DNA of 24,356 bases from a virus: IMG/VR virus record IMGVR_UViG_3300049445_000008, positions 1 to 24,356 of that record; one strand, 5' to 3'. The first letter of the stretch is position 1. Each line of letters begins with the position of its first letter. Below, in pieces: positions 15,004 through 22,166 of this stretch. The position numbers and the translations under genes are program-made. The notes beneath the pieces are model-generated. The model was not told where the DNA came from, searched no databases, and saw only the letters and a program-made list of their open reading frames with translations.

Positions 15004-15281
15004 TTGAGACGAGGATTCACACTCACGGAAATGAGGTGACATTTGAGAGCATTCAGGACTGCACGCCTATCCTTGAGAACACGACACGTCTTCATAATGA
15101 AGGCGCTCACGGATCGTCTGAGATGAAACACGCCGCTAGGATTCCTTTTGTGATCATCGAGAAATACTGCAATGACAATAATCTGTTGTTCAGTGAATTC
15201 ATGGGAAACCCTGATCACATGAAACGGATTTGCAATGATCCTTCTCTGTCTGGATTCCGTATCTGGAAAGGTCAGTTGTAA
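15000..15281 (+). CDS. Conserved podovirus-type hypothetical protein, 93 aa
   Basis: Starts in an ATGA overlap. The core GSSEMKHAARIPFVIIEKY (residues 38-56) is followed by FSEFMGNPDHMKRICNDPSL and ends FRIWKGQL. The [GS]-E-M-[KR]-H-x-[AV]-x-[IL]-P and F-R-[IV]-W-x-G features are recurrent in small proteins encoded before the adaptor gene of podovirus-like phages. Their function is not established. The fully conserved-looking layout argues for an intact gene with a role in virion assembly. Confidence 0.72.
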   Translation: MIETRIHTHGNEVTFESIQDCTPILENTTRLHNEGAHGSSEMKHAARIPFVIIEKYCNDNNLLFSEFMGNPDHMKRICNDPSLSGFRIWKGQL

Positions 15282-15892
15282 TGGCTCAGATCATTGATTA
15301 CTCAAGTCTCCAAGCGAACGTAGCAGATTTTCTGCACCGTGCGGATTTGACTGGAGTAATTCCGACTTTCATTCAAGAAGCAGAACAACGGATGAATACG
15401 GATGTTGTCGCACGGGATATGGAGATTATTGCGCCATTGACAACCGTATCAGGTAATCCACTGCTCGCAATGCCGACAGATGTTACAGAGACACGCAGAT
15501 TGACTGTGAGTAGTACTGATCCTATTCGTGTTTTAAAGTACATGGCGGCAGAGCAACTGGCCTTGAAATATCCATCATCCCGTGTCGGTACACCAGAAGT
15601 TTACACAGTGACCGGAGGTAATTTCCAGTTTGGCCCAATCCCTGATGCAGCGTACACACTTTCATATATGTACCGCCAGAGACTAACAGCTTTGACTGGT
15701 GCTGCGCCGACAAATTGGCTGATTCTAAAGTGGCCTCTTGCGTACCTCTATGGTTCATTATGTGCTGCTGCTCCTTATCTTGGAAACGACGTGAGGATTA
15801 AAACTTGGGAAGAAAAATACAAACAGATGGTTGACGGAATAAATAGTGTAGATTGGTTCTCTGGTGGAACGATGGCTGTGCAGGCGGTGTAA
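15281..15892 (+). CDS. Head-tail adaptor protein
   Basis: The 203-residue protein begins MAQIIDYSSLQANVADFLHR, with a helical FIQEAEQRMNTDV (30-42), and has the segment PLAYLYGSLCAAAPYLGND (152-170) followed by a long helix with WEEKYKQMVDGINS. These are the usual marks of the phage adaptor family that docks on the portal and starts the tail (gp11-like or gp6-like connectors). It starts on the previous stop (TAATG) and lies directly before the nozzle-like gene, as in other podoviruses. Confidence 0.82.
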   Translation: MAQIIDYSSLQANVADFLHRADLTGVIPTFIQEAEQRMNTDVVARDMEIIAPLTTVSGNPLLAMPTDVTETRRLTVSSTDPIRVLKYMAAEQLALKYPSSRVGTPEVYTVTGGNFQFGPIPDAAYTLSYMYRQRLTALTGAAPTNWLILKWPLAYLYGSLCAAAPYLGNDVRIKTWEEKYKQMVDGINSVDWFSGGTMAVQAV

Positions 15893-17349
15893 TGGATAAA
15901 TTAACTGGTTTTATGCCAGATAGCGACCCGACCAATCCGGGTGTCCTAACAGCATGCAATAACTTTATTCCTTATGAAGCTGGTATGTGTGGTGCTCCTA
16001 CCGGATTAACGCCTGTTGGAGTACCTGCCCTTGCGGCTGCCTGTAATGGCGCTGTTGTAGTTACGAAATTAGACGACACAAGAAGGACTTTTGCAGGGAC
16101 AACGACAAAGCTTTACGAACTATCAGGAGGTGTGTGGACCGATGTTTCTACGGGTTCTTATACTGGTGGAACTGATACTCGGTGGTCGTTCGCTCAATTT
16201 GGTAATACTACTCTCGCCTCTGATCTAACCGATACGATTCAAAGATCACCCGGATCAGGTATTTTTGCTCCTATAGCGACGGCTCCAAAAGCAAGAATCA
16301 TCTTCACTGTAGGCTCTTTTGTAATGGCTCTAAATACCGTAGACGGTACTTTTGGTACATCACAAAATCGCTGGTGGTGTTGTGCTTCTTTTGATGAAAC
16401 AAGCTGGACACCTTCTGTAACAACTCTTGCGACGACCGGGCAGTTAGTCTCTGCTCCCGGTCAAATCGTAGCCGGTGGAAGACTTGGTGAATACGCTGTA
16501 GCCTACAAAGAGAAGTCTATTTTTCTTGGGCAAAACGTTGGTGCTCCAGATGTTTTCGACTGGATACAAGTTCCCGGTGGTGAAGCGGGTTGTATAGGAC
16601 AAGAGGCTTGGTGTGATATCGGAGGTTCGCATTTCTTTGTTGGAATGGACAATCTCTGGATATTTGATGGTTCTCGACCGACTCCAATAGGTGAAGGCAT
16701 ATTGAGGCAATGGTTTTATACGAACTCGAATCCAACTTATCGCTACAAGACTCAATGCAATTTTGAGAAACAGAATAATCGAGTGTGGATTTTCTATCCA
16801 TCTACTCTTTCAACAACTCTTGATTCTGCGCTTGTTTACCATCTTGGATCGAAGCAATGGGGACAAGTCACAGTTAGCGTTGAAGCCATCCTTAATTACA
16901 TCGCAGCGGGTACAACGATTGACGGTTTAAGTGCCGTAAGTTCTACGATTGACGGGCTCTCAGGATATTCGTTTGATTCTCAGTTCTGGTTGGCTGGTGG
17001 TAGAGGTTTAGGGATAGTAAATACATCGCATCAAATTCAGATGATGAACGGCGCATGTGCTACAAGCGGATTTACTACTGGAGATGCTGGAGACGATGAC
17101 GTAGTTTCAACGATGAGAAAGATTCGTCTTCGGTTTGCTCCCGGATATACACCGTCTACAGCATCCGTACAGATGTACACAAAAATGAACGTAGGGGATG
17201 GACTTACTCCAATGTCAAACGTGACGATGGTCAATGGAAAGTTCGATGTTCTCCAATCTGCAAGGTATCACCGTGGGGCGTTTACTTTCACGGGCGATAA
17301 CAGGGTTTTAGGTCTAGGCGCTGATATTACGCCTGATGGTCAATTTTGA
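15892..17349 (+). CDS. Tail nozzle-like protein
   Basis: The frame is open from 15853, but ATG at 15892 overlaps the adaptor stop (TAATG) and gives MDKLTGFMPDSDPTNPGVLT. The product is 485 residues, rich in Trp, Gly and Thr, with repeated beta-strand/turn segments such as KLYELSGGVWTDVST and ENLW-like positions (MDNLWIFDGSRPTPIGEGIL). This suggests a propeller-type fold as in podovirus nozzle and tail-tube proteins. An internal repeat TIDGLS occurs twice (residues about 342-359). The place after the adaptor fits a nozzle. The assignment rests on position and general pattern. Confidence 0.72.
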   Translation: MDKLTGFMPDSDPTNPGVLTACNNFIPYEAGMCGAPTGLTPVGVPALAAACNGAVVVTKLDDTRRTFAGTTTKLYELSGGVWTDVSTGSYTGGTDTRWSFAQFGNTTLASDLTDTIQRSPGSGIFAPIATAPKARIIFTVGSFVMALNTVDGTFGTSQNRWWCCASFDETSWTPSVTTLATTGQLVSAPGQIVAGGRLGEYAVAYKEKSIFLGQNVGAPDVFDWIQVPGGEAGCIGQEAWCDIGGSHFFVGMDNLWIFDGSRPTPIGEGILRQWFYTNSNPTYRYKTQCNFEKQNNRVWIFYPSTLSTTLDSALVYHLGSKQWGQVTVSVEAILNYIAAGTTIDGLSAVSSTIDGLSGYSFDSQFWLAGGRGLGIVNTSHQIQMMNGACATSGFTTGDAGDDDVVSTMRKIRLRFAPGYTPSTASVQMYTKMNVGDGLTPMSNVTMVNGKFDVLQSARYHRGAFTFTGDNRVLGLGADITPDGQF

Positions 17350-17358
17350 GAGGTATAT

Positions 17359-18003
17359 ATGGCTGACTTAGGTTTTAATGGTACAGATCAATCGTGGACA
17401 GGTGGCAACCCTTTTCTTGGGTCTCAAAACCCGTATCTGCAACAAAACATCAATGCTGCGAATCAGAACATCACTAATGCTTATACGATGGGTACTGCCC
17501 CGCAGATGGCGTCTCGGCAGGCTGCTAGTGGGTCTTTTGGGAATTCTGGTCTTGACCAACTCCAAGGCGAACAACAAAGACAATTCGCACAGACATTAGG
17601 GAATACTGATGCCCAGATGCAGATGCAGGATTATCAAAATCAGGGAAATATGTACCAGTGGGATCAAGGATTCAATGCAAACCAATATCAGCAAGGTATT
17701 ACTAACAACCGCAACAATCTACAAGATTACATGGGTCTGCTATCCACGGCGAATAACTTTGGCAATCAAGATATCAACAACGCAAACACCATCTACAACA
17801 CCCCAATGAACTATGCGCAAGGATTTGGAAATCAAGCAAACAGCATTGGTAACGGGTATGGAACTACTACTGGGTCCACTTCTTATCAACAGAGTCCTGT
17901 GATGGGCGCTCTAGGTGGCTGGCAGTTAGGTGGAGCGGTAGCGAAGAATACGAGCAATCCATCGAGTAACTATAACTGGACTGGCTCTAGCCAGTATTTC
18001 TGA
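17359..18003 (+). CDS. Asn/Gln-rich virion protein, possibly ejection-related, 214 aa
   Basis: GAGAGGT lies before ATG. The protein is extremely rich in Asn, Gln, Gly and Tyr with hardly any Lys or Arg: MADLGFNGTDQSWTGGNPFL, then long helical and loop parts such as QQNINAANQNITNAYTMGTA. Near the C-terminus is a Gly-rich hydrophobic stretch SPVMGALGGWQLGGAVAK. Such composition is common among internal virion proteins ejected with DNA or tail-tip proteins in podoviruses. It ends with a one-base overlap (TGATG). The role is inferred from context. Confidence 0.65.
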   Translation: MADLGFNGTDQSWTGGNPFLGSQNPYLQQNINAANQNITNAYTMGTAPQMASRQAASGSFGNSGLDQLQGEQQRQFAQTLGNTDAQMQMQDYQNQGNMYQWDQGFNANQYQQGITNNRNNLQDYMGLLSTANNFGNQDINNANTIYNTPMNYAQGFGNQANSIGNGYGTTTGSTSYQQSPVMGALGGWQLGGAVAKNTSNPSSNYNWTGSSQYF

Positions 18004-18509
18004 TGATCGACTTCATGGTAATTTCGTCCCCTCGTAGTGGCAGTACGTGGGCAGCAAATTGGTTAACTACCGATTACAGTATGTGTCTGCATGATCCTCT
18101 ATGGACGCATCATTACACGACGCTTGATGAGATAAAAAGCAACAAACGTCTGGGTATTTCGTGTACAGGCATCTATCTCTTCTCGGATTGGGTGAATAAG
18201 CATCCTTCTCGGAAAGTTATCCTTCACCGCCCCTTGGAAGAAGTAAACGCATCTTTGGACAAGATGGGTCTTCCGATGATCAGTGAATCACAGCACAAGA
18301 GACTCGACTATATCGAAGGCACTCATGTTCAATGGACTGATATTTTTCATCGGCCAAAGGACATTTACGAATATCTTACTGGGCTGGAATTTGATGAAGA
18401 GCGACACAAGTTTTTGATGGACATTGAAATGCAGCCACGTCTACAAGGACTTTCTATGGACAAAGCATTGACAAAGAGACTCATTGATGAGTTAGGAGAA
18501 TTGACATGA
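18003..18509 (+). CDS. Sulfotransferase-like P-loop protein, 168 aa
   Basis: The N-terminus MIDFMVISSPRSGSTWAANW carries PRSGSTW (residues 10-16), the 5'-phosphosulfate-binding loop of sulfotransferases that use PAPS. Downstream KVILHRPLEEVNASL (71-85) matches the second, 3'-phosphate-binding motif with R76 and S84. At 168 residues it is clearly shorter than usual sulfotransferase domains (about 250), so the acceptor-binding part is reduced or absent. It is packed tightly between virion genes (TGATG before, ATGA after), so it is co-expressed with them. It may sulfate or otherwise modify a small molecule or surface sugar, or use the fold for another purpose; no acceptor can be deduced. Confidence 0.78.
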   Translation: MIDFMVISSPRSGSTWAANWLTTDYSMCLHDPLWTHHYTTLDEIKSNKRLGISCTGIYLFSDWVNKHPSRKVILHRPLEEVNASLDKMGLPMISESQHKRLDYIEGTHVQWTDIFHRPKDIYEYLTGLEFDEERHKFLMDIEMQPRLQGLSMDKALTKRLIDELGELT

Positions 18510-19015
18510 TTGGTTCAATTATCGGCGGTGGTATTGGTCTTCTGAGTAGCATGGGGAATAAATCCCAAAATACAACTCAAGATAAGTCTCCGTGGGCTTC
18601 TGCTGCGCCGTGGATGCAACAGAACATCGCTAGAGGTCAGCAACTACAAGACTTCTACGCCAAGAATCCTTTCTCTCAAGGTCAACAAACAGCATACGGT
18701 AATCAGGCTGCTCTAGGGAATAGTTATCGTGCGATGTTGCCCCAACTGATGTCTGGTCTTCCTACACAGCAATTCAACCGTGCTAATCCTGCTGCGCGTG
18801 CTCCCATGCAAAGCTTCGCACCTCCCGGAGGAAACTTGGGGTTTTCACCAATCCAAAACCAGTTTGATCCGTCACAGATGGCTCCTACTCAACAGGCCGC
18901 TCCGCCTCCTGCGTATGTAGCCCCTCCTGGGCAGCGTAGAAACTGGCTAGACCCCCTCGGTATCAATCCGGGCTTGTTTGATCCATTCGGTATCGCACAA
19001 GGAGGGCAAGGATAA
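18506..19015 (+). CDS. Pro/Gln-rich small ejection-type protein, 169 aa
   Basis: The gene starts in an ATGA overlap. The product begins MIGSIIGGGIGLLSSMGNKS, a short glycine-rich hydrophobic stretch that may contact a membrane. The rest is Pro-, Gln- and Ala-rich and probably disordered (FDPSQMAPTQQAAPPPAYVA). It is followed immediately by two larger candidate ejection proteins. In podoviruses the smallest ejection protein often has such a membrane-active start. The role is inferred from context and composition. Confidence 0.65.
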   Translation: MIGSIIGGGIGLLSSMGNKSQNTTQDKSPWASAAPWMQQNIARGQQLQDFYAKNPFSQGQQTAYGNQAALGNSYRAMLPQLMSGLPTQQFNRANPAARAPMQSFAPPGGNLGFSPIQNQFDPSQMAPTQQAAPPPAYVAPPGQRRNWLDPLGINPGLFDPFGIAQGGQG

Positions 19016-20517
19016 TGGGCCTTCTCGACGCGCTCAATTCTAACGAAGGCCGTCTAGGTGTTGGGCTGCTTGCGGCTGCTGGGCCTAGGGATATCCTTCA
19101 ATCTGGTTTTGGTGATCGTCTGCAAGAAGGGCTTGGGAAGATGGACGCCTATAAACAGACAGCATTGAAACAAAAGATGGATGACATGCAGTATCAGATG
19201 CTGATGCAAAGCCTCCAACAGGCGACGAGAAAGAACGATCTTATTAATCAGGCTCTATCGCAAGCTAACCAACCTGAACAACCTCAACAGCCACAAGGAC
19301 AACCTCAGACGCCACTATTCAATTCCATGTCTCCAGCAATGACGGCAGGAATTGAGAATGCCGGTCTGCCTGCGCCTATTCCTCAAAAGCAAACCTCTAC
19401 TGCTGCATTCACGTCTGGTCCGTTCGCAGGAATGGATAGAAAGATGGTTTTGAATGACTTGATGTTCAATAATGGCGAGCATCTTTCAACCTTTATGAAT
19501 CAGCGGACTACGCCGACTGACTTCCAGAAACTTGTCACGGCTGCTGGTATTCCTGACGCTCAAGGTGCATTACAGACGCAAGTTAAAAAGCAAAACTACA
19601 CAGCCCCCACCCGTCTTGGTGAAGGTGCGTTTGCAGATGCAAATGGAAATGTCCAAGGTCTTCCAACTACTGCGCCTCCCGGTTTCATCAATGTCAATAG
19701 TGGTGGTCAATGGTCTACACAACCTGTCTCTGGTGGTCTACCTGCGGCTGCTCAGTCCAATAAAGCCATTGAAGGAGCAAAACAGGAAGCCAAGATTGAA
19801 ATGGTCAAGGACGCCTCCGGAAGAATGGTTCCCCGCAGGATGGGTGATATCGTCAATACTTTCGGACAATCTACAGTACCTCAGACAGGCCCGTGGGCAA
19901 CGATGCCGAAGGTACAGGAACCTACTGGTATTGGACAGACTACCGCTCAAGAACAAGCCCAAAAAGGCCAAGGCGAAGCCGTCACGAAGCTAAGTGAGAA
20001 GTTCGGCACGTCGGCACAAGAAGCAAACCAGAGAATCGCTGTTAACAACCAAGCTCTTGAACTTGTTGACAAGTCTGATATCGGTTCTTTGGCTCCGCTG
20101 CGGGCTGATATCAAGAATGTGATTCAAACCTTTGTGCCGGGTATTTCTGAGTCCTCATTTCAGAATACTCCAAGCGCAACAATGGCTCTCCAAAAGGACT
20201 TGGTTAACGCTGCGACTCAAAAGGCTAAACAGCAATTTGGTTCTCGTATCACACAGTCAGAGGTTAACCTCATGCTGACCCGTGGTGCTCCGAATGTGAG
20301 TATGCCTAAAGCTGCTCTGAAATATCTAATCGAGTCTGACAACAAAGCATCTCAGTATGCTATTCAACAATCGCAGGACTTTGGCAAATATGTTTCCGGT
20401 GGAGGGGACCCGTACCAGTTTGAAGGATGGTATGCCAATAAATTTCCAATGACCAATGAAATCAGCAAAGTCAAAATGCAGTCTCCGCAGACATGGGGCA
20501 TCAAGAAGGTGAACTAA
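19015..20517 (+). CDS. Candidate internal virion/DNA-ejection protein, 500 aa
   Basis: Starts on the previous stop (TAATG). The N-terminus MGLLDALNSNEGRLGVGLLA and a following helical segment rich in Met and Gln (KQTALKQKMDDMQYQMLMQS) lead to a low-complexity Pro/Gln region around residue 80-105. The C-terminal third is helical (AQEANQRIAVNNQALELVDK, then QQFGSRITQSEVNLMLTRGA). This combination is common in uncharacterised podovirus proteins encoded between nozzle and fibres, thought to be ejected into the cell wall with the DNA. No lytic enzyme motif was seen. Confidence 0.7.
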   Translation: MGLLDALNSNEGRLGVGLLAAAGPRDILQSGFGDRLQEGLGKMDAYKQTALKQKMDDMQYQMLMQSLQQATRKNDLINQALSQANQPEQPQQPQGQPQTPLFNSMSPAMTAGIENAGLPAPIPQKQTSTAAFTSGPFAGMDRKMVLNDLMFNNGEHLSTFMNQRTTPTDFQKLVTAAGIPDAQGALQTQVKKQNYTAPTRLGEGAFADANGNVQGLPTTAPPGFINVNSGGQWSTQPVSGGLPAAAQSNKAIEGAKQEAKIEMVKDASGRMVPRRMGDIVNTFGQSTVPQTGPWATMPKVQEPTGIGQTTAQEQAQKGQGEAVTKLSEKFGTSAQEANQRIAVNNQALELVDKSDIGSLAPLRADIKNVIQTFVPGISESSFQNTPSATMALQKDLVNAATQKAKQQFGSRITQSEVNLMLTRGAPNVSMPKAALKYLIESDNKASQYAIQQSQDFGKYVSGGGDPYQFEGWYANKFPMTNEISKVKMQSPQTWGIKKVN

Positions 20518-22166
20518 TGGCCGAATACGACATTACATCGCCTGACGGAAAACAGTTCCGTGTTACCGCGCCTGATGACGCTTCTCAGGATCAGGTGTTG
20601 GCCTATGCACAGAAGAATTTTCAGATGGCTGCGGAAGTTTCACGTGGAACAATTGCTGATACGATGCGCTCCGCTCTGCGTTCTGCTTTCCCTATGGGCT
20701 CGATGGCCCTAGAGAATACGCTCGGTGTTCTTGGCATGGGCAAAGACGTTGCCGCTGGTGGTGTACGCGGTGCAGGATCTATTGGTGCGACAGTCCTAAG
20801 ACCGTTCGAGACTGCTCCTGAAAACGCACAACGCCGTCAGTCAATGGACGAAGCCCTTCAAACATTGGGAGCGAACACAAAATCTCCCGGTTTTGCTGCT
20901 GGCAAGCTTGGCGCGGAAATTGCTGGCACAGCGGCCATCCCCGGTGTAGCCGCAAAAGGCTTGGGAATGATCCCCGGTGTCTCTGCTCTGGCCGGACCGC
21001 TCCTAGACTCAATCGGCACTGCGGGGATGTCTGCCGGTGGCGCTACAGGGCTTCCAGGGCTTGCCATACGTGGCGCTGGAGGGGGTATTTCTGGTGCCTT
21101 GACCGCTGGGGCCATTGATCCCAAAGATACGGCTACAGGGGCTGTAATCGGGGCTACGGTTCCTGTTGTTGGGAAACTTGCTGGCGATCTTGGATCAGCA
21201 TTAAGGGCACAAGGAGCTACGGATGGCGCTCAAAACGCCATGAAAGACGCTGCCTTGGCAGAAGGACGGGCCGCTGGTTACAAGGTTCCAAACTCCGAAG
21301 TTGCCCCTACCTTTCTAGGAAATCGTCTTGAAAGTCTAGGAGGGAAAGCAGCTATCAAGCAGGAAGCAACACTTTCAAATCAAAAGGTTACGAACGAACT
21401 TACACGCAAGGCTTTAGGTATTCCGTCTGATGTTCCTATTTCTCAAAGTGCTTTAGATGATCTGCGAAAGACTGCCGGACAAGCTTACAAAGAAGTAGCC
21501 GATATCTCTCCCCAAGCAGCGGCTGATCTTGAAGCTTTGAAGACCGCAAGGAACGAAGCACAAGGGTGGTTCAATGCCTACAACCGTTCTGCTAGGCCAG
21601 ATGACTTGGCGAAGGCAAAAGCTGCCAGAACACTTTCTGATCAACTTGAAAATGCTCTTGAACAACATGCTTTCAATGCTGGAAATGACTTCCTGATTCC
21701 ACAGTTGCGAGATGCTCGGCAACTTATCGCAAAGACCTACACAGTCGAGAGAGCCTTGAACAAAGCCACTGGAGACGTGTCTGCTCCTGTGATAGGGCGC
21801 TTATTTGATAAGGGCAAACCATTATCTGATGGACTTGAGACTGTTGGCAAGTTCAATCAGGCATTCCCTAAATTCACTGGCAACGCTGTAAACACACCTG
21901 CGCCCGGAGTGAGCAAGGTAGAGGCTTTATCCAGCGCTTTATTGGGTGCTGGAGGGGCTGCTGTATCAGGTAGTCCAATGGGCATATTGGCGGCTGGACT
22001 TCCCCTTCTGTCTCATCCTGCCAGAGCATTGGCGCTTTCTAAATTCATGGAAAGAACGCCTCAATATGCAGCCCAGTTGAATCCGCTTCTAGGCGCGAAT
22101 TTGGGACTTCTCACTCAGGGGGCTTATCGTTCGGCTCCTGCTTTGGCTGGTCTGTTGGACCGATAA
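20517..22166 (+). CDS. Candidate large internal virion/DNA-ejection protein, 549 aa
   Basis: The frame is open from 20493, but ATG at 20517 lies on the previous stop (TAATG) and gives the typical start MAEYDITSPDGKQFRVTAPD, followed by DASQDQVLAYAQKNF. That N-terminal domain (Y-x-[IV]-x-x-P-D-G-x-x-[FY]-x-V-x-A-P, ending in A-x-K-x-F) is shared by many phage internal virion proteins. Residues about 60-240 are Gly/Ala-rich with hydrophobic helices (GLPGLAIRGAGGGISGALTA), suggesting membrane or channel formation. The C-terminal half is helical, ending in SSALLGAGGAAVSGSPMGIL. It is probably ejected with the DNA. The role is inferred from family resemblance and position. Confidence 0.75.
   Translation: MAEYDITSPDGKQFRVTAPDDASQDQVLAYAQKNFQMAAEVSRGTIADTMRSALRSAFPMGSMALENTLGVLGMGKDVAAGGVRGAGSIGATVLRPFETAPENAQRRQSMDEALQTLGANTKSPGFAAGKLGAEIAGTAAIPGVAAKGLGMIPGVSALAGPLLDSIGTAGMSAGGATGLPGLAIRGAGGGISGALTAGAIDPKDTATGAVIGATVPVVGKLAGDLGSALRAQGATDGAQNAMKDAALAEGRAAGYKVPNSEVAPTFLGNRLESLGGKAAIKQEATLSNQKVTNELTRKALGIPSDVPISQSALDDLRKTAGQAYKEVADISPQAAADLEALKTARNEAQGWFNAYNRSARPDDLAKAKAARTLSDQLENALEQHAFNAGNDFLIPQLRDARQLIAKTYTVERALNKATGDVSAPVIGRLFDKGKPLSDGLETVGKFNQAFPKFTGNAVNTPAPGVSKVEALSSALLGAGGAAVSGSPMGILAAGLPLLSHPARALALSKFMERTPQYAAQLNPLLGANLGLLTQGAYRSAPALAGLLDR

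Follow-up and report, generated by a model that had tools for sequence, protein, structure and literature searches.

Sulfotransferases depend on a basic residue in the 5'-phosphosulfate-binding loop (5'-PSB), a catalytic His or Glu located between the two binding motifs and a Ser in the 3'-PB (PMC6637879, PMC9372746). The closest described families, Pfam Sulfotransfer_3 (PF13469) and Sulfotransfer_1 (PF00685), have in common with the phage protein analysed here the 5'-PSB, the 3'-PB with its R-x7-S spacing and the YEDL-like strand which follows it (profile-profile probability 95-97%), but their models run over 216-255 positions as against 168 residues in our protein, which carries about 60 residues fewer between the motifs and escapes single-sequence detection by these families. 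Human TPST1 and the bacterial RaxST-type tyrosylprotein sulfotransferases likewise have a PRSGTT-type loop, the basic residue of the 5'-PSB and the Ser of the 3'-PB, and in structure TPST1 is one of the closest matches (TM 0.57 by query length); these enzymes, however, use a Glu base on a protein-tyrosine substrate, whereas our protein is much shorter and has His-Asp instead. In phages, Sulfotransfer_3 genes have been reported from OM43 and cyanobacterial phages, where the function of phage sulfotransferases was called unclear (PMC10580990); these phage groups also contain 2OG-Fe(II) oxygenases, and PF13469 recognises those sulfotransferases directly, unlike the protein described here. A search of the literature library with the phrases phage-encoded or viral sulfotransferases returned no paper. 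An earlier note on this DNA had considered a phage sulfotransferase unusual, which is half right, as such genes are already on record in the above phages and the related protein GP01 of phage phiH1 carries the remark 'similar to sulfotransferase'. The present analysis corrects the 'hydrolase' label for the family as a whole, describes the compact build of the protein, and identifies a slot for hydroxylase, cupin and sulfotransferase genes in the ejection regions of podophages. We consider it probable that the product is a minimal sulfotransferase which depends on PAPS, the activated sulfate of the cell; it would belong to a family restricted to phages, be carried as swappable accessory cargo and act on a hydroxyl of the virion or the envelope.

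The window, i.e. the whole stretch of 24,356 nucleotides that was analysed, is a 24.4-kb IMG/VR record of an SU10-type podophage, in which SU10 models matched the portal (E 6e-203), the major capsid protein (2e-93) and the adaptor (1e-30). Near its left end, before the terminase gene, positions 1324-1788 encode a protein with HNH endonuclease and AP2 domains (PF13392, E 2.2e-16), a probable homing endonuclease. The gene of interest and its neighbours are as follows.

15281-15892, plus strand: SU10-type adaptor (PF24175, E 1.3e-30).
15892-17349 (ORF listed from 15853), plus strand: nozzle-like virion structural protein (phrog_3287, E 2.2e-55).
17359-18003, plus strand: 214-aa Asn/Gln-rich protein of the virion block, left border of the slot (profile match to the podophage k20 family, E 8.2e-43).
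18003-18509, plus strand: compact sulfotransferase-like gene (phrog_10855), 168 aa.
18506-19015, plus strand: 169-aa protein of the k15 family, right border of the slot (profile E 2.4e-22).
19015-20517, plus strand: 500-aa protein, probable ejection or internal virion protein by position (weak profile match, 2e-7, to a cluster at the same position in other podophages).
20493-22166, plus strand: 557-aa protein of cluster 30, conserved downstream in relatives (profile E 5.7e-217, partly by construction, as the protein itself belongs to this cluster; 31% identical to its homologue in locus L002).

The sulfotransferase-like ORF begins with ATG, ends with TGA and has 168 codons; its product reads MIDFMVISSPRSGSTWAANW...VILHRPLEEVNASL... 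Its start overlaps the stop of the preceding gene by 1 nt (TGATG), and its end overlaps the start of the following gene by 4 nt (ATGA). It belongs to a closely packed operon together with virion genes, which agrees with the co-expression proposed in the earlier note. The designation 'ejection-protein block' used there stands as a positional label: the SU10-type adaptor gene and, after it, the nozzle-like gene lie upstream and relatives have the same layout, but neither the 214-aa nor the 169-aa flanking protein had an informative match in Pfam or PHROGs. In GC and GC3 the gene is similar to its neighbours, so that its composition gives no sign of recent transfer. A scan of the region for promoters and terminators gave sites no more numerous than in shuffled sequences and is therefore uninformative on transcription. 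A perfect 6-bp-stem hairpin, ACTGGCTCTAGCCAGT, at 17980-17995 ends 7 nt before the start codon of the sulfotransferase-like gene; it may be a chance occurrence, because the region does not exceed shuffled sequences in its frequency of terminator-like sites.

The product matched the phrog_10855 profile over residues 1-166 (E 2.8e-53), and tblastn found relatives in 49 phage records, the full-length matches being 36-47% identical. These GenBank relatives (PaMx25 gp68, PAJD-1, PaMx28, phiH1 GP01 and others) come mainly from phages of Pseudomonas, Stenotrophomonas, Xanthomonas and Variovorax and are annotated as 'hydrolase', which is also the PHROGs description of the family, or as 'putative nucleotide triphosphate hydrolase'. 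A search of IMG/VR added 64 loci. In a limited pattern search of 11.3 million prokaryote contigs just two relatives appeared, both in metagenome-assembled genomes, and given the many phage loci the family looks phage-restricted. Among 13 measurable close pairs dN/dS was 0.10-0.28 in 12 and 0.57 in one, indicating that the protein is maintained. The number of records and loci encoding relatives, the conservation of the motif residues and the purifying selection on the codons together confirm that the ORF is a real gene and not a chance reading frame.

We then compared the surroundings of the gene in 69 loci, comprising the 64 from IMG/VR, four from GenBank and the window. As judged by labels derived from annotated gene clusters, the gene has podophage adaptor, nozzle or DNA-ejection genes as neighbours in 36 of the 69, a positive outcome for the survey near nozzle genes that the earlier note had asked for; the others are siphophage tail-tip (8), nrdJ/RusA-type (7), primase (5) and elsewhere (13), and with close relatives included these counts are of loci and not of independent events. 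On the tree these labels group together, yet 13 changes are needed to explain them, which indicates that the gene has moved from one context to another. In many long-tailed phages the phrog_10855 gene occupies nucleotide/replication or lysis neighbourhoods, whereas the window copy, in an SU10-type podophage, lies between nozzle and ejection genes; the positions in long-tailed phages weaken the case for a virion-specific role, and we argue that such a role is not general for the family.

To see what else the interval between the k20 and k15 genes can hold, we surveyed loci found through the left-border (k20) gene. The interval was closed in 13 loci, held a 2OG-Fe(II) hydroxylase in 10 of the loci listed (with duplicates removed, about seven separate contigs, plus two with overlapping ORF calls) and contained another gene in most of the remaining ones; among loci found through this left gene, the window alone had the sulfotransferase-like gene there. 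Cupin-like proteins were the other gene in 11 of the loci inspected, Pfam placing Cupin_2 above its cut-off in L268 and below it in L270 and L164, while the longer cupin-like protein of L253 had no Pfam match. These small proteins (99-185 aa) are frequent in the interval, for instance at L253:4642-5160, L268:2919-3218 and L164:3637-4005. Since the interval is closed, hydroxylase-filled or cupin-filled in relatives, the sulfotransferase-like gene sits in a cargo slot that related phages fill with different genes in exchange.

The hydroxylase is also found next to the gene itself. Directly downstream of the sulfotransferase-like gene, at least nine loci (L001, L002, L022, L028, L033, L050, L051, L055 and L058) encode a PF05118-type 2OG-Fe(II) hydroxylase, and L025 and L057 also have one; the nozzle-ejection interval of the window has none. 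The HxD...H...R residues of the hydroxylase are invariant, and the structures matched by its model (pLDDT 79.8) are L-proline cis-4-hydroxylase, prolyl hydroxylases and a collagen prolyl hydroxylase from a virus. An independent search with the hydroxylase yielded 367 IMG/VR loci confirmed by tblastn, of which the best 80 (L160-L239) were kept; some ORF labels in them are on the wrong strand, the gene caller having chosen a long antisense ORF over the hydroxylase (e.g., L177, L221). Podophage nozzle or ejection markers were present in 70 of these best 80 loci and the sulfotransferase-like gene in 22, usually directly upstream and once downstream. On these counts the hydroxylase is a frequent resident of the nozzle-ejection interval and the sulfotransferase a common, non-obligate partner. 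The hydroxylase family was seen in this interval in many podophages with or without the sulfotransferase, as at L164:4001-4552.

Collagen-like GXY runs lie near the pair in L170, L173, L174, L178, L181 and L227. In L173 (456-2876), L174 and L178 a collagen-like fibre gene, a group-1 glycosyltransferase, the sulfotransferase and the hydroxylase stand in a row, possibly a cassette for fibre glycosylation or modification; the fibre gene of L173 has an Mtd N-terminal domain. A collagen-like substrate was rejected as the general explanation of the pair, as most sulfotransferase loci and the window are without such runs. In L002 (1361-3491), a TylF-type methyltransferase gene and a gene for a methyltransferase/glycosyltransferase-9 fusion are located just upstream of the adaptor gene.

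This neighbourhood allows a second reading of the acceptor, which we regard as possible but rather doubtful: the sulfotransferase would be specific to host surface glycan or lipid precursors, blocking superinfection or changing receptors, and its position among virion genes would merely be a convenient slot for late expression. As to the identity of the enzyme this is a sub-case of the explanation that we prefer, and it is a rival to it as to the acceptor. The known relatives infect Gram-negative hosts, the position of the gene varies between phage types, and methyltransferase and glycosyltransferase genes are close by in L002, as is the group-1 glycosyltransferase directly upstream in L173, L174 and L178; this last enzyme, however, could equally modify the adjacent collagen-like fibre.

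The assignment to sulfotransferases itself draws on the motifs, on profile-profile comparison and on the predicted fold. The motifs and candidate active-site residues are given below with their conservation among 57 distinct homologues.

18030-18050, plus strand: 5'-PSB loop PRSGSTW, residues 10-16 (P10, R11, T15 and W16 in 57/57, S12 in 54/57).
18090-18098, plus strand: H30-D31-P32, invariant (57/57), candidate catalytic base (His or Asp).
18228-18254, plus strand: 3'-PB, R76-x7-S84 (R76 in 57/57, S84 in 55/57).
18402-18404, plus strand: R134, invariant (57/57).

L125 is also invariant. The two motifs were thus found where the earlier note had placed them in the 168-residue ORF, and its concern that close homologues might have lost the motif residues is not borne out. 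R76-x7-S84 aligns with the RDxxxxxxS ('vRDxxxvxxS') motif of PF13469 proteins, and the three places essential in known sulfotransferases are filled by R11, H30 (or D31) and S84; by analogy with those enzymes (PMC6637879, PMC9372746) H30 or D31, lying between both PAPS motifs, may serve as catalytic base, and R134 possibly contacts the 3'-phosphate. Several points stand against the sulfotransferase reading, among them the base: Glu or His is expected, and the window protein has a His-Asp pair.

Aligned by hhalign with 15 PF13469 proteins, the family scored a probability of 96.7% (E 3.8e-10, 169 columns), with one unrealigned path joining the P-loop, the 3'-PB and the YEDL-like strand; the posterior-trimmed local alignment spans mainly the 3'-PB. 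The score was 94.7% with PF00685 and 0.1-0.2% with unrelated phage families. As single sequences, 27 of 45 family members matched Sulfotransfer_3 at E<=0.1 (best 4.2e-5). Against the reading, none was shown to pass the curated Pfam cut-off for Sulfotransfer_3 or Sulfotransfer_1, the window protein had no Pfam match, no PF13469 match was found in the record, and sequence searches of the PDB gave E>0.1 only. The superfamily relationship therefore rests on profile-profile and fold comparison. The AlphaFold2 model of the window protein (pLDDT 92.5, pTM 0.87) has a predicted sulfotransferase-like fold, its PDB matches by Foldseek being, in order, SULT2A1, Teg14, O-phosphoseryl-tRNA kinase (PSTK) and then further SULTs and TPST1, the latter among the top six. 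The best of them reached E-values of about 4e-4 and TM 0.4-0.57 to solved sulfotransferases; these TM-scores are modest, a further point against the reading, but agree with the absence of about 60 template residues between the motifs in the hhalign alignment. Among viral structures, compact phage proteins named 'Sulfotransferase family' matched first (E 3.7e-10, TM 0.74). Combined together, motif conservation, profile-profile score and predicted fold support the compact PAPS-type sulfotransferase with both binding motifs that the earlier note had suggested, and neither of the two checks by which that note would have rejected it, on the fold and on the motif residues, did so.

The same missing segment, which would include the canonical substrate-binding elements and may leave the protein without them, is what a protein that binds PAPS or PAP without transferase activity would be expected to lack, for example one sequestering sulfonucleotides or regulating sulfur or nucleotide pools in infection, and in some phages the gene does sit with nrdJ, MazG and primase genes. 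We think this unlikely: pure binding has no need of the invariant H30-D31-P32 between the PAPS motifs, and the frequent pairing with the hydroxylase suggests acceptor chemistry. A P-loop NTPase or a small-molecule or nucleotide kinase, as the GenBank and PHROGs annotations and the P-loop kinases among the Foldseek matches (PSTK, gluconokinase) might imply, is highly improbable and was rejected, as the loop lysine of the Walker-A motif GxxxxGK[ST] is absent from all 57 homologues, the AAA_33 kinases taken as contrast set scored 5.8% in hhalign against 96.7% for sulfotransferases, and R76-x7-S84 matches the sulfotransferase 3'-PB; the 'hydrolase' label of phrog_10855 thus looks wrong.

PAPS-dependent O-sulfation is accordingly left as the best-supported account of how the protein would act. 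We propose that R11 and the surrounding loop bind the 5'-phosphosulfate, that R76 and S84, perhaps with R134, bind the 3'-phosphate, and that an acceptor hydroxyl activated by H30 or D31 would be converted to a sulfate ester with release of PAP. The gene would serve as late accessory cargo, which in podophages drops into a nozzle-ejection slot that is elsewhere empty or filled by a cupin or a 2OG-Fe(II) hydroxylase gene, and which is often paired with the hydroxylase. Because of this late, virion-adjacent position and the hydroxylase partner, we favour as the likeliest acceptor a hydroxyl on a tail or ejection component of the virion or on a host envelope molecule, which the paired hydroxylase may sometimes make.

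A 'hydrolase' label in the databases leads annotators to overlook a phage enzyme family that occurs in Pseudomonas, Stenotrophomonas and Xanthomonas phages as well as in many podophages from the environment. Its cultured relatives (Nipunavirus, Pamexvirus) make the chemistry testable, and with 168 residues the protein is a candidate for a minimal sulfotransferase scaffold. As a speculative extension, to which we give little weight, short-tailed phages may modify their tail or ejection components in two steps, 2OG-Fe(II) hydroxylation and then O-sulfation by the minimal sulfotransferase, with the sulfotransferase, hydroxylase and cupin genes interchangeable in one slot; if true, virions would have a system of post-translational modification that had so far escaped notice. 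The recurrent hydroxylase partner and the exchangeable position between ejection genes suggest a candidate chemistry in the late phage programme.
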